Assembly (NCBI RefSeq): GCF_902168135.1
Contig: NZ_CABHOL010000021.1
Location: forward strand, 124,001 to 188,000
Direction of reading: 5' to 3'
Length of the DNA stretch: 64,000 bases
DNA from: an uncultured Fluviicola sp.
Lineage (GTDB): Bacteria > Bacteroidota > Bacteroidia > Flavobacteriales_D > Crocinitomicaceae
The stretch's first letter is position 1; every line of letters starts with the position of its first letter. The notes beneath the pieces were generated by a model. It made no database searches. It was not told where the DNA came from and was given only the letters and a program-made list of their open reading frames with translations. The position numbers and the translations under genes were made by a program. Below are positions 45,197 through 60,929 of the stretch, piece after piece.

Positions 45197-45559
45197 ATGA
45201 CGGATCGGAAATGTCTTGAATGCGGCCAAAAATTAAGCGGCCGGAAAGATCAAAAGTTTTGTTCGGACTATTGCAGGAACACCTATAACAACAGGCAGAA
45301 TGAAGACGCCACGAAATATGTAAGGCGGATCAACAATATTCTACGAAAGAACCGGCGTGTTTTAGCCGCTTTAAACCCGACCGGAAAACGGACCGTGGAC
45401 GCTATCACATTGGCGGAAGAGGGTTTCAACTTCCATTATTACACCAATACTTATCAAACCCAAAAGGGAAATACTTATTTCTTCTGTTATGAGCAAGGGT
45501 ACACGAAACTGGAGGGTGATCAGTATATGTTGGTTTTGAAGCAAGATTATGTCAAGTAA
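45197..45559 (+). CDS. Small zinc-ribbon protein
   Basis: A 120-residue cytoplasmic protein. The N terminus holds four cysteines, CxxC...CxxxC (CLECGQKLSGRKDQKFCSDYC, residues 6-26), the pattern of a zinc ribbon that often occurs in predicted nucleic-acid-binding or regulatory proteins. The remainder is helical and basic, then an aromatic-rich strand section. ATG 45197 (not 45146) is preferred because the ribbon begins directly after it. Convergent with the gene ending at 45635. Confidence 0.65.
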   Translation: MTDRKCLECGQKLSGRKDQKFCSDYCRNTYNNRQNEDATKYVRRINNILRKNRRVLAALNPTGKRTVDAITLAEEGFNFHYYTNTYQTQKGNTYFFCYEQGYTKLEGDQYMLVLKQDYVK

Positions 45560-45634
45560 TTATCAATTATGAATGGTACAATTATCAAGAAGGAACTTCT
45601 TAATAATTGATAATTATGAAATTGATAATTATAA
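45556..45634. repeat. AT-rich inverted repeat between convergent genes
   Basis: Holds five TAATTATCA/TTGATAATTA words in both orientations and a central AAGAAG-GAA-CTTCTT hairpin (45589-45603 region). Same word family as 4511-4542 and 58803-58839. It may terminate both flanking genes. Confidence 0.55.
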
Positions 45635-51272: not shown

Positions 51273-51307
51273 CAAAGTTAATTGAAAAGTGAAAATTGAA
51301 AAGGCAA
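51273..51307 (-). promoter_or_regulatory. prfB promoter
   Basis: TAACTTTG at 51273-51280 (minus strand) with TTG at 51305-51307 and a 24-base spacer. The start codon is only four bases downstream of the -7 element. Confidence 0.6.
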
Positions 51308-57921: not shown

Positions 57922-58803
57922 CTAATAACTGCTTGTTGCCCCGCCCACATTCTCGATCGGATGCCAGGTTGTTTTCAATTCCTGCAGATCGGTGATGTAA
58001 TACGGATTCTCATCTGTTTCTTGGGTGAAATCATTCTCGTAAACAAACACGCGCTTCACGTTGCAATCCGCTCCGGATTCAATTGCTAAAGCGTATTCTT
58101 TGTTTCCACCGGCATAAACTACTGCATTCACATCCATGTGGCTGTGGAACTGGTCAACCAATTCTTTTTCTGTTCCTGTCAGGATGTTCACTACTCCGCC
58201 TGTAAGATCTGAGGTAGCCAACACTTCAGCAAAAGTGATCGCACACAGGGGCAGATTTTCCGAAGCAAGTACCACACACGCATTTCCACCGGCAATAACC
58301 GGCAAAATAGTAGAAACCAACCCGATTAATCCATTCGTTTGAGGTGCAATAATTCCAACTACTCCCATTGGTTCCAAAGCAGAGAAATTGAAATGACTGC
58401 TTGCCACCGGGTTCACGGAAGAGAAGACCTGCTGGTATTTGTCGCACCAACCAGCATAATACACACAGCGATCAATGGAAAGTTCCACCTCCTGTTTTGC
58501 TTTTGCTTCCGTACTTCCCTGTTTCACCAATTCTTCTACGAACTGTGCTTTACGCCCTTCCAGCATTTCGGCAATACGGTACAGGATCTGACCGCGGTTA
58601 AAAGCTGTTTTCTCAGACCAGGAGCCAAATGCTTTACGCGCAGCAACCACTGCATTTCTGAAATCTTTCCGGGACGACAGACACATATTTGCCAATGGCT
58701 GTCCTTTCTGATCCAACGGAGAATAATACCTTCCGGATTCTGTTCTCGGAAATGCTCCGCCGATGAAGATTTTGTATGTTTTTAGTACTTCCAAACGTTC
58801 CAT
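57922..58803 (-). CDS. Aldehyde dehydrogenase domain without catalytic domain (ALDH16 C-terminal-like)
   Basis: A 293-residue protein that aligns with the N-terminal (NAD-binding) half of aldehyde dehydrogenases: GGAFPRTESGRYY, then KTAFNRGQILYRIAEMLEGR, APQTNGLIG and GGVVNILTG. It ends shortly after that half (TWHPIENVGGATSSY) and has neither the ELGGK glutamate motif nor the GxxCxAxxR cysteine motif, so it cannot be a working ALDH alone. This matches the truncated second domain of ALDH16. I start at ATG 58803 because the longer reading to 58815 begins inside the AT-rich repeat. Confidence 0.75.
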   Translation of the reverse strand: MERLEVLKTYKIFIGGAFPRTESGRYYSPLDQKGQPLANMCLSSRKDFRNAVVAARKAFGSWSEKTAFNRGQILYRIAEMLEGRKAQFVEELVKQGSTEAKAKQEVELSIDRCVYYAGWCDKYQQVFSSVNPVASSHFNFSALEPMGVVGIIAPQTNGLIGLVSTILPVIAGGNACVVLASENLPLCAITFAEVLATSDLTGGVVNILTGTEKELVDQFHSHMDVNAVVYAGGNKEYALAIESGADCNVKRVFVYENDFTQETDENPYYITDLQELKTTWHPIENVGGATSSY

Positions 58804-58819
58804 TATAATTATCAATGTT

Positions 58820-59327
58820 TAATTATCAATTATTAATTGCTTTAACGCTTCGTCCATTTTGAATTTTCTTTGGTTCGCAAATTAATTGTCTTAATAATTC
58901 TAAGTAGTTGATTCGCTTCATCGTGAATGGTTAAAAGATGCTCTTTTTCTTCATTCAACAATGCCATTAACAACTCTTACCAGTATATACTTTCGTCACA
59001 TTCTTTTTGACAGATGCTTAGTTTATGAATGAAATCTGCTTTACTTTCAGCATTTCTAGCTTCTCTCATATTTGCCCCAACAGATGTAGATGACCTCACC
59101 AACTGGTCTGTCAAAATAAATTCTTTGTGCCTTTCTTTTATTCGTCTACAATTTTTTACTGTGTTTAATGCGAAGTGGAAACTTCTTTCTCTGATGTCCT
59201 GGTTTTTAATGATCATTTTCTCGTTTCTTATTTAATTTAAACAAAAACATCGTCTAAAAAACAAATTATTCATCAAAAAAAATGACGTTTCCGTCTTGAT
59301 AATTAATCAATTAATAATTGATAATTA
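58820..59327. mobile_element. Small element with perfect 20-bp inverted ends carrying a four-helix-bundle gene
   Basis: A 20-base sequence at 58820-58839 is repeated exactly inverted at 59308-59327. Inside lies a broken four-helix-bundle (23S rRNA intervening-sequence family) gene. Size about 508 bases; it sits between the two ALDH genes, right at the stop of the upstream one. No transposase or target duplication was noticed. Confidence 0.5.
58842..59216 (-). pseudogene. Four-helix-bundle (23S rRNA IVS) protein, interrupted by an in-frame stop
   Basis: The reading frame from ATG 59216 encodes the N-terminal three helices of the family (NQDIRERSFHFALN, DQLVRSSTSVGANMREARNAES, KADFIHKLSICQKECDESIYW) and meets TAA at 58977-58979. 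After that stop the same frame continues without interruption for 44 further codons to TAA at 58842-58844, and those codons read as the expected last helix (ELLMALLNEEKEHLLTIHDEA ... LLRIIKT). Members normally have YW-L-ELL at this point, so a single T-to-A change (TTA to TAA) explains the break. The 79-residue truncated product may still be made. Confidence 0.8.
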
Positions 59328-60827
59328 TCTTTCTATTTTCAAATAAGCGCCCAATCCCTGTAAACCGCCTTCTCTACCGAATCCGCTCTCTTTGTAGCCT
59401 CCGAAAGGGGAAGTCGGGTCGAATTTATTATAGGTATTTGCCCAAATGACCCCGGCACGCAGTTTTGTTGTCATATTAAAGATACGTGACCCTTTGTCTG
59501 TCCAAACTCCTGCTGCCAATCCATACGGCGAATTATTCGCTTTCTGAATGACCTCATCGATAGTACGAAAGGTTTGAATTGTCAATACCGGTCCGAAAAT
59601 CTCTTCCTGGGCAATTCTGCTCGATTGCGCTACATCAGTAAATAAGGTTGGTCTCACGAAATATCCTTTTTCAGGAATCTCGCAGGAACTTTCATACATG
59701 CTTGCTCCTTCGTCCTTTCCTATTTTAATATATTTCTGAATGGTCTCCAATTGCTCCTTGGAGTTGATCGCACCAATATCCGTGTTCTTATCCAACGGAT
59801 CACCGACATACAAGGTATCCAGTCGGTCTTTCAGCTTTTGGATGACTTCTTCGGCAACGGATTCCTGAACAAACAACCGTGAACCTGCACAGCAGACGTG
59901 TCCCTGGTTGAAGAAAATTCCGTTCACGATTCCCTCCACGGCCTGGTCGACCGGTGCATCTTCAAAAATGATATTCGCCGATTTTCCTCCTAGTTCCAGG
60001 GTCAATTTCTTTCCTGTTCCAGCCACTGCTTTCTGAATGATCTTTCCAACATTCGTAGAACCTGTAAACGCAATTTTGTTGATATCCGGGTGATTAACAA
60101 TCGCTGCTCCCGTATCTCCGTACCCGGTCAGGATGTTGACAACACCCGCTGGCAAACCGCTCTCATGAATAATTTCTGCCAATAACATCGCTGTTAACGG
60201 GGTGGTTTCTGCCGGTTTCAACACAACCGTATTTCCTGCTGCTAAAGCCGGTGCAATTTTCCAGGCTGCCATTAAAAGGGGAAAGTTCCACGGAATGATT
60301 TGTCCGGCAACACCCAAAGCACTTACATTTCTGTTCGGAAATGCGTATTCCAGTTTATCTGCCCAACCCGCGTAATAGAAAAAATGATTGCACGCCAGCG
60401 GAACATCTACGTCTCGTGATTCGCGAATAGTCTTCCCGGCATCCAGGGTTTCCACAACGGCCAGTTCACGAGCTTTCTCCTGCATCAAACGTGCAATACG
60501 GTAAATATACTTCCCGCGTTCTTTCGCCGACAACTTCGACCAAACGTTTTCATACGCTTTGCGTGCAGCTTTTACCGCTTTGTCAACATCTGCTTCGTTG
60601 GCATAAGCCACTTCTGCCAGCACCTGCTCGTTTGCCGGGTTGGTCGATTTAAAGTATTTTTTTGAAGCCGGCGCAACAAACTTCCCGTCGATATACAAAT
60701 CGTAGCGTTCTTTCAGTTTCACATGACTGGTACTTTCCGGACTTGGGCTGTAATCCCAGGTTCCGTTGAAATTGAAATCCTTTTTTGCCTGATTTTCCGG
60801 TTCGCTTTTCTTATCTTTTTTTGTCAT
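59325..60827 (-). CDS. Aldehyde dehydrogenase, full catalytic type (ALDH16 N-terminal-like)
   Basis: A 500-residue NAD-dependent aldehyde dehydrogenase. Oxyanion-hole N181 in IPWNFP, general-base E278 in LELGGKSAN and nucleophile C312 in GHVCCAGSR are all present, so it should be active. An N-terminal extension (about residues 1-40, with WDYSPSPES) precedes the first strand. Together with the short ALDH downstream it may form a split ALDH16. Its neighbour deoC makes acetaldehyde, which it could oxidise. Confidence 0.9.
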   Translation of the reverse strand: MTKKDKKSEPENQAKKDFNFNGTWDYSPSPESTSHVKLKERYDLYIDGKFVAPASKKYFKSTNPANEQVLAEVAYANEADVDKAVKAARKAYENVWSKLSAKERGKYIYRIARLMQEKARELAVVETLDAGKTIRESRDVDVPLACNHFFYYAGWADKLEYAFPNRNVSALGVAGQIIPWNFPLLMAAWKIAPALAAGNTVVLKPAETTPLTAMLLAEIIHESGLPAGVVNILTGYGDTGAAIVNHPDINKIAFTGSTNVGKIIQKAVAGTGKKLTLELGGKSANIIFEDAPVDQAVEGIVNGIFFNQGHVCCAGSRLFVQESVAEEVIQKLKDRLDTLYVGDPLDKNTDIGAINSKEQLETIQKYIKIGKDEGASMYESSCEIPEKGYFVRPTLFTDVAQSSRIAQEEIFGPVLTIQTFRTIDEVIQKANNSPYGLAAGVWTDKGSRIFNMTTKLRAGVIWANTYNKFDPTSPFGGYKESGFGREGGLQGLGAYLKIER

Positions 60828-60857
60828 CCTAAATCTTATTTTTCCCGCCCTCTTTTT

Positions 60858-60918
60858 CTCCCTTCAAAGGGAGAGATTCCAATCCGCCTCCCCCTTTGGA
60901 GGGGGACTGAGGGGGAGG
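60858..60918. repeat. Purine/pyrimidine palindromic repeats between ALDH and deoC
   Basis: Two adjacent hairpins, CTCCCTT-C-AAGGGAG at 60858-60873 and CCTCCCCC with either of two downstream GGGGG tracts at 60887-60918. Such CCCCCTTTGGAGGGGG-type sequences recur in many Bacteroidota genomes (recollection). Confidence 0.6.
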
Positions 60919-60929
60919 ATTTTTCTAAT

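Follow-up and report, generated by a model that had tools for sequence, protein, structure and literature searches.

Palindromic hairpins present in high copy number in intergenic DNA, next to stop codons, are familiar as the REP/BIME and RAYT-associated repeats. The intervening sequence (IVS) of the Coxiella 23S rRNA gene is 428–444 nt long, carries an S23p ORF, and has a 28-bp stem (PMC4990558). TAACTGA heptamer repeats are reported from Beggiatoaceae, Cyanobacteria, and Bacteroidetes, as direct repeats apart from one inverted case (PMC4679880). Avd, the accessory protein of diversity-generating retroelements, is reported to resemble PF05635 (PMC10053308), and a four-helix gene between a guanylate kinase and a nicotinate-nucleotide adenylyltransferase gene has been listed among “phage elements” (PMC5524665).

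The element described here lies in a 64,000-nt stretch of DNA, which we call the window, from genome G000, a member of the genus that includes Fluviicola chungangensis. The original prediction had likened it to an IVS-type insertion. The design is indeed alike: the element and the 23S rRNA IVS (PMC4990558) have a similar size, an S23/PF05635-type ORF in the loop, and complementary ends. The window element has stem-forming ends and an S23/IVP ORF, the latter broken by a TAA. Its membership among the IVSs is nevertheless wrong, since the site is between two aldehyde dehydrogenase (ALDH) genes and not in a 23S rRNA gene. Unlike the IVS, which occupies an rRNA helix, the cassette sits between protein-coding genes, and its arms are periodic heptads.

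The TAACTGA repeats resemble the cassette arms in forming 7-nt intergenic arrays near start codons in overlapping groups of hosts; “four helix,” “23S rRNA,” and “intervening” are absent from the text of that report (PMC4679880). A diversity-generating retroelement has a reverse transcriptase next to Avd, whereas the window cassette, on contig C21, has none adjacent to it, the sole reverse transcriptase match in G000 being at C9:128223-128690 (L402). A link between PF05635 genes and inverted heptad arms appeared in no title or abstract opening found by a search that covered little of the subscription literature. The cassette class is widespread and apparently undescribed.

Anatomy of the window element

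The features of the window discussed below are as follows.

59325..60827, minus strand: upstream neighbor, 500-aa aldehyde dehydrogenase
59295..59327, minus strand: left arm (5′ side of the cassette), reading TAATTATCAATTATTAATTGATTAATTATCAAG; the stop codon of the 500-aa ALDH upstream forms its first three bases
59217..59294, minus strand: leader, from left arm to start codon, with a TTAAATAAGAAA-type motif
58842..59216, minus strand: frame of the four-helix bundle gene (PF05635/TIGR02436 family), 124 codons plus stop, with an in-frame TAA at 58977-58979
58806..58839, minus strand: right arm (3′ side), the inverted counterpart of the left, perfect over 20 bases at 58820-58839 and with a second, degenerate copy at 58806-58825
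57922..58803, minus strand: downstream neighbor, aldehyde dehydrogenase family protein, listed with 297 aa and a TTG start at 58815; an ATG is at 58803
60839..60920, strand not assigned: CCTCCCC palindromic repeat upstream of the 500-aa ALDH; the same type is found at the ALDH–ALDH junction in five relatives
45557..45631, strand not assigned: solo heptad hairpin of the window arm family, beginning at the stop codon of the preceding gene

The 508-base insert has perfect 20-bp inverted ends at 58820-58839 and 59308-59327, just where the original prediction had placed them, and the match extends over 23 bp at 96%. The right arm ends immediately before the ATG of the downstream ALDH. Both ALDH genes lie downstream of a gene whose translation reads like a deoC-type product. 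The TTAAATAAGAAA-type motif of the leader is a possible promoter.

The start codon of the four-helix gene is at 59216, and the frame is open to the stop at 58842-58844 except at codon 80, the in-frame TAA. Thus the gene is broken in G000, an interruption that had escaped the original prediction. The assignment to the four-helix family of IVS proteins was correct: the 79-aa ORF of the window matches the PF05635 profile (E 1.1e-16; 61.4 bits, cut-off 33.8). TIGR02436 is matched by all 14 relatives in alignment A1, the scan having covered these intact relatives. The profile of the relatives also matches the solved chain 2rld, from an entry with five chains (E 7.7e-37). Uninterrupted four-helix genes persist in related genomes, and the window element is probably a decayed copy of the cassette. 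The four-helix dN/dS is 0.03–0.21 in 10 of 11 pairs, dS being undefined in the remaining one; the protein is therefore under purifying selection. In its predicted fold, the window element is closed by a 20-bp stem that its ends form with each other (MFE z −3.15), and a search of Rfam at E up to 1 found no family at the cassette.

Junction states in related genomes

The ALDH junction was compared in 14 genus genomes, G000 included, and in order-level genomes, among which four spacers were not delimited and G027 was a false match. A four-helix gene is present in seven of the 14: G000 (broken), G004, G007, G008, G009, G011, and G012. G006 retains a remnant with most of the four-helix gene deleted. 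A CCTCCC palindromic repeat is found instead in five genomes (G001, G002, G003, G005, and G013), with what look like arm remnants beside it in G002, G005, and G013. The remaining genome, G010, has a 15-bp spacer and no insert. In the window, the CCTCCCC repeat at 60839-60920 gives a sub-threshold match to the Rfam family whalefall-1 (30.9 bits, cut-off 37), other matches being weaker.

The original prediction had put the element at an operon junction and had proposed that relatives be inspected for an empty site. Spacers without an insert, 15–80 bp long, are found in G010 and in four order-level genomes (G033, 15 bp; G031, 35 bp; G025, 80 bp; G038, 50 bp), in support of an operon junction as the site. 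An end sequence that is simply a common intergenic repeat, together with a gene at the same site in all relatives, had been set down as the signs of a locus without insertion. The first half of this holds, the ends being a repeat that is common in the genome; the second does not, since no more than 7/14 genus genomes have the gene.

The history of the site is not simple. In the ALDH tree, G002, which lacks the four-helix gene, is the sister of G000 (support 98), and G012, which has a different four-helix gene, groups with G000, G002, and G007 (support 99). G008 lies outside that clade and carries the window-type gene. The arms at this junction are of the AATTATC type in G000, G004, G006, G007, and G008, they read AATTGAAAATGTAAAATTG in G009 and G011, and they are of another type in G012; each arm matches its own partner. 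In the four-helix tree, the gene of G009 and G011 has as its sisters genes that G006 and G007 carry at a different junction (99/92). It follows from the junction states, the trees, and the differing arms that the ALDH site has been gained, lost, and exchanged, and that its occupant is not the product of a recent single jump. Neither a transposition event nor an enzyme was seen. Inspection by eye showed no target duplication, in a comparison where no close relative has a clean unoccupied site and the empty sites are all in distant genomes.

A second junction, at 45557 of the window, was read in 9 of the 14 genus genomes. Here, G000, G001, and G013 have a solo hairpin, that is, one with no gene, and in G008 the solo is apparently doubled, one copy being incomplete. 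Four-helix cassettes with other heptad arms occupy the junction in G002, G006, and G007, and it is the genes of G006 and G007 that are the sisters of the G009/G011 genes at the ALDH junction. An open frame of about 300 aa is also found in G007, G012, and G003, the last of which has CCTCCC repeats too.

In the wider four-helix tree, from which 38 of 189 proteins were left out (stops or fewer than 85 aa), the proteins of one junction tend to group together, which means that descent is mainly vertical and that any mobility can at best be slow. Cassettes reside at a junction for a long time, with occasional replacement or loss.

Heptad arms within the genome and across phyla

The arms are not confined to the cassette. 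With up to three mismatches allowed, the 20-mer end matches the window at five places, of which two are the ends themselves, where shuffling predicts 0.01. With up to two, it has 28 matches in G000, the two cassette ends again included, and the reversed control has none; further copies of the ends, for which a genome search had been suggested, thus exist. A core arm pattern gives 45 matches in G000 (control, 0), at 39 distinct places; these are the solo hairpin places, built of the cassette's AATTATC heptads. Many of the 20-mer matches are short palindromes, with two nested arms and a short loop, often begun at a stop codon. In view of these many further end matches, the cassette's arms belong to a family of hairpins, built of AATTATC/AATTATG heptads and spread over the genome, that is common to cassettes and gene-less solos, and the idea of one discrete element set by fixed 20-bp ends is not supported. 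A further intergenic heptad array (AATTGAAAAGTGAAAATTGAAAAGG) lies at 51280 of the window.

Compared with transposons and MITEs, the arms are common to the solos of G000, yet they differ between cassettes and between species. A single transposon with fixed ends was rejected on the grounds that the arms are too different between loci. In G011, there are solos with the same arms as its cassettes. Like REP/BIME elements, the solos are palindromic hairpins that occur in many copies between genes, beside stop codons; the cassette is unlike the REP/RAYT system in that its arm sequence varies by locus and its partner gene encodes a four-helix protein. No heptad array is present within the 3-kb loci of the two RAYT-like (Y1_Tnp) genes of G000, and RAYT-driven REPs were rejected on this basis. 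One isolated AATTATCAA-type 9-mer occurs in RAYT-like locus L094.

The general pattern was sought at 189 PF05635 loci from several phyla. The order set has 79 loci from the genus, family, and order (most of the listed genus matches and one best locus for most other genomes). The other 110 comprise a named set and 30 class-level loci. The named set is limited to the 80 best among at least 578 named records retrieved with alignment A1, which represents one subfamily only. Arms were scored by comparing the upstream flank with the downstream flank in reverse complement. A score of at least 15 was reached at 35/79 order-set loci, 50/110 named/class loci, and 5/337 control genes, counts in which one locus (L037/L136) appears in both sets and loci from related genomes are not independent. 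When the flanks were scored as direct repeats, the numbers were 7/79, 11/110, and 7/337. That is, about 45% of the 189 loci, and 1.5% of controls, lie between clearly inverted arrays of degenerate, mostly 7-nt repeats; over half of the loci (44/79 and 60/110) have no clear arms, with scores below 15.

The period is evident from lag-7 and lag-14 peaks in both flanks of the PF05635 loci, which are absent in controls. A lag-7 array is found on at least one side in 54% of the order set, 78% of the named/class set, and 15% of controls, and on both sides in 33%, 43%, and 1.5%, respectively. The period is not always seven: lag-8 arrays occur at 19% (order) and 10% (named/class) of loci and at 4% of controls. 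Examples of arm units are AGAATTT in Symploca and Anabaena, AATTGAG and AGTTATG in Bacteroidota, AGTGTAA in a Verrucomicrobia MAG, and AATTACA in an Endomicrobia MAG. The leader motif TA.CTTAA[AT] lies upstream of 23/79 order-set four-helix genes and 3/337 control genes, and is found at 0/110 loci of the named/class set.

The arm arrays tend to span the gap from the stop of one gene to the start of the next. Among 60 loci with clear arms and co-directional neighbors, 47 have a left arm that starts no more than 15 nt from the stop codon of the upstream gene, and 45 have a right arm that ends no more than 30 nt from the following ATG. Both neighbors are co-directional with the four-helix gene in 133/189 loci. 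For 184 loci, both neighbors were found; 36 of these loci are between divergent or convergent genes, and at 15 the four-helix gene is antisense to both neighbors. Certain junctions recur, among them the front of a thiolase gene (13 loci), sdhB (11 loci), atpG, and sufC, the names being taken from translations.

Several loci are unusual. L093 and L129, both in G013, are nearly pure heptad expansions, with AATTCCT units in the left arm and AATTACG units in the right, as if each side were expanding on its own. In L196 and L193, from MAGs, the inverted arms are very long (scores 119 and 84) and the four-helix gene is surrounded by higher-order repeats. A divergent four-helix group, comprising L002 (G000 C55:12191), L109, L111, L112, L114, and L116, has no clear heptad arms that we could see; L002 lies just downstream of a tRNA-like gene, part of whose 3′ end seems to be repeated after the four-helix gene.

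The arms differ between loci, yet the two arms of one locus match. This was tested by swapping arms over all 24 clusters with a related downstream gene (89 loci, with L136 omitted as a duplicate of L037), some of which may be domain relatives rather than one junction. The match of a locus to its own arm was better than the median arm-swapped match at 59/89 loci, lower at 27, and equal at 3 (p 3e-7). In the nine clusters tested first, own arms were better in 39/52 and worse in 12. The thiolase, sdhB, cysN-type, and ALDH junctions show a strong effect. In the thi, atpG, “flavo7”, suf, and rpoN clusters, the match is about as good with swapped arms as with a locus's own, the arms there still being common to relatives. 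Arms can be rigid on shorter time scales: the left arm is identical at 33/33 positions in G000, G007, and G008, while the adjacent leader matches at 65/79, 56/82, and 49/82 positions, at a gene dS of 0.37 for G000–G007 and 1.2 for G007–G008. The arms are also polar, with G exceeding C in 73/85 left arms (the reverse in 7) and C exceeding G in 68/85 right arms (the reverse in 11).

The mismatches between arms bear on the cause of the matching. There is no excess of G·U over A·C mismatches, either at a strict setting (65 vs. 85; 104 loci) or at a loose one (222 vs. 244; 154 loci), a result that tells against pairing in RNA as the reason why the arms stay matched. These counts speak for a cause at the level of DNA, be it copying of the two arms as a pair, gene conversion with solos, or the insertion of ends made beforehand. 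The arms may nonetheless have a role in RNA, since the window element folds with its ends paired.

The four-helix family itself is very common. PF05635 matches are found in 119/148 class genomes, 36/40 relatives, and 0/14 control genomes. In sampled stretches, five genomes with PF05635 had 17 intergenic lag-7 arrays over 864 kb and five without it had one over 984 kb, where some of the G133 arrays could sit inside cassettes not seen among the matches listed. The association of arrays with PF05635 has p 3.6e-5 by length and 0.048 by genome, and G101 has a heptad array despite having no PF05635.

Other small genes were examined as occupants of such flanks. None of the 24 GIY-YIG genes evaluated (27 of 30 loci were taken) has inverted or heptad flanks, and they were rejected as alternative occupants. 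Small GIY-YIG genes, at loci among L316-L345, lie between direct repeats in 15/24. For DUF559 genes (13 evaluated of 14 taken from 22 loci), the flanks are inverted in 6/13, five with CCTCCC-type arms, and direct in 4/13. The DUF559 loci are thus like the cassette in having a small gene between inverted repeats (6/13) and unlike it in their GC-rich repeat, their different protein, and the lack of a heptad period in 12/13. Their CCTCCC-type repeat is also the kind that takes the place of the four-helix cassette at the ALDH junction of five relatives.

Proposed behavior of the cassette and alternatives

We lean toward the reading that the window element is a decayed copy of a junction-dwelling cassette, a slow selfish element whose four-helix protein acts on the hairpin of its arms. 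Such a cassette consists, in order, of a left array of degenerate 7-nt repeats running from the upstream stop, a leader, the four-helix (S23/IVP-type) gene, and an inverted right array ending before the next start. It would enter intercistronic gaps, where it would harm neither gene. The arms may form a hairpin, in DNA or in RNA, that would be the putative target of the four-helix protein. The solos would be gene-less derivatives of the cassette, and both arms would be renewed as a pair by a DNA-level copying step.

A different explanation makes the element an mRNA intervening sequence, whose arms pair in the operon transcript so that RNase III cuts the stem and releases the four-helix mRNA, as with the 23S IVS. 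The 23S IVS has the same protein family and complementary ends (PMC4990558). The window element folds with a 20-bp closing stem (z −3.15), neighbors are co-directional in 133/189 loci, and the arms have a consistent strand polarity. We nonetheless regard this as unlikely. Selected pairing should yield more G·U than A·C mismatches, the opposite of the 65 vs. 85 and 222 vs. 244 found, and an operon transcript is hard to reconcile with the 36 of 184 loci between divergent or convergent genes and the 15 that are antisense to both neighbors.

It is also improbable, in our view, that REP-like hairpins produced by some other factor fill the junctions, with the four-helix gene as a frequent passenger in the loop, although the 39 solo places in G000, the presence of a solo and a cassette at the same junction in different species, and the G011 solos with the arms of its cassettes would all fit. 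A passenger role sits poorly with the 0/24 GIY-YIG genes found in heptad arms, with the near absence of heptad arrays from sampled stretches of genomes without PF05635, and with the lack of any heptad array in the 3-kb loci of the two RAYT-like genes of G000. That AT-rich intergenic sequence merely happens to be inverted around a gene is next to impossible. The arms are AT-rich, but the window has five matches for 0.01 expected, the reversed patterns give 0 against 28 and 0 against 45, and the flanks of control genes behave differently; a chance AT-rich repeat is ruled out by the shuffles and the reversed-pattern controls.

The reading as a junction-dwelling cassette can be extended, although we would lean slightly against the extension as a whole. 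The S23/IVP-type proteins may be the dedicated partners of cassettes that cross phyla, whose arms would be rewritten together by DNA-level copying, the sequence drifting and the match being kept. The heptamers of Bacteroidota and Cyanobacteria might then be largely gene-less offspring of such cassettes, and the 23S rRNA IVS might be a special case that landed in rRNA.

Very common as they are, four-helix proteins of the IVS type lack an explanation. A link with the heptad arms found between genes gives them a testable function, namely in the protein's dealings with the heptad hairpin. The link also offers a possible origin for heptamer repeats that have been described without a mechanism (PMC4679880), and a framework for the long-standing question of how rRNA intervening sequences originate. 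If the arms do turn over as a pair, this would need a copying mechanism that has apparently not yet been described.
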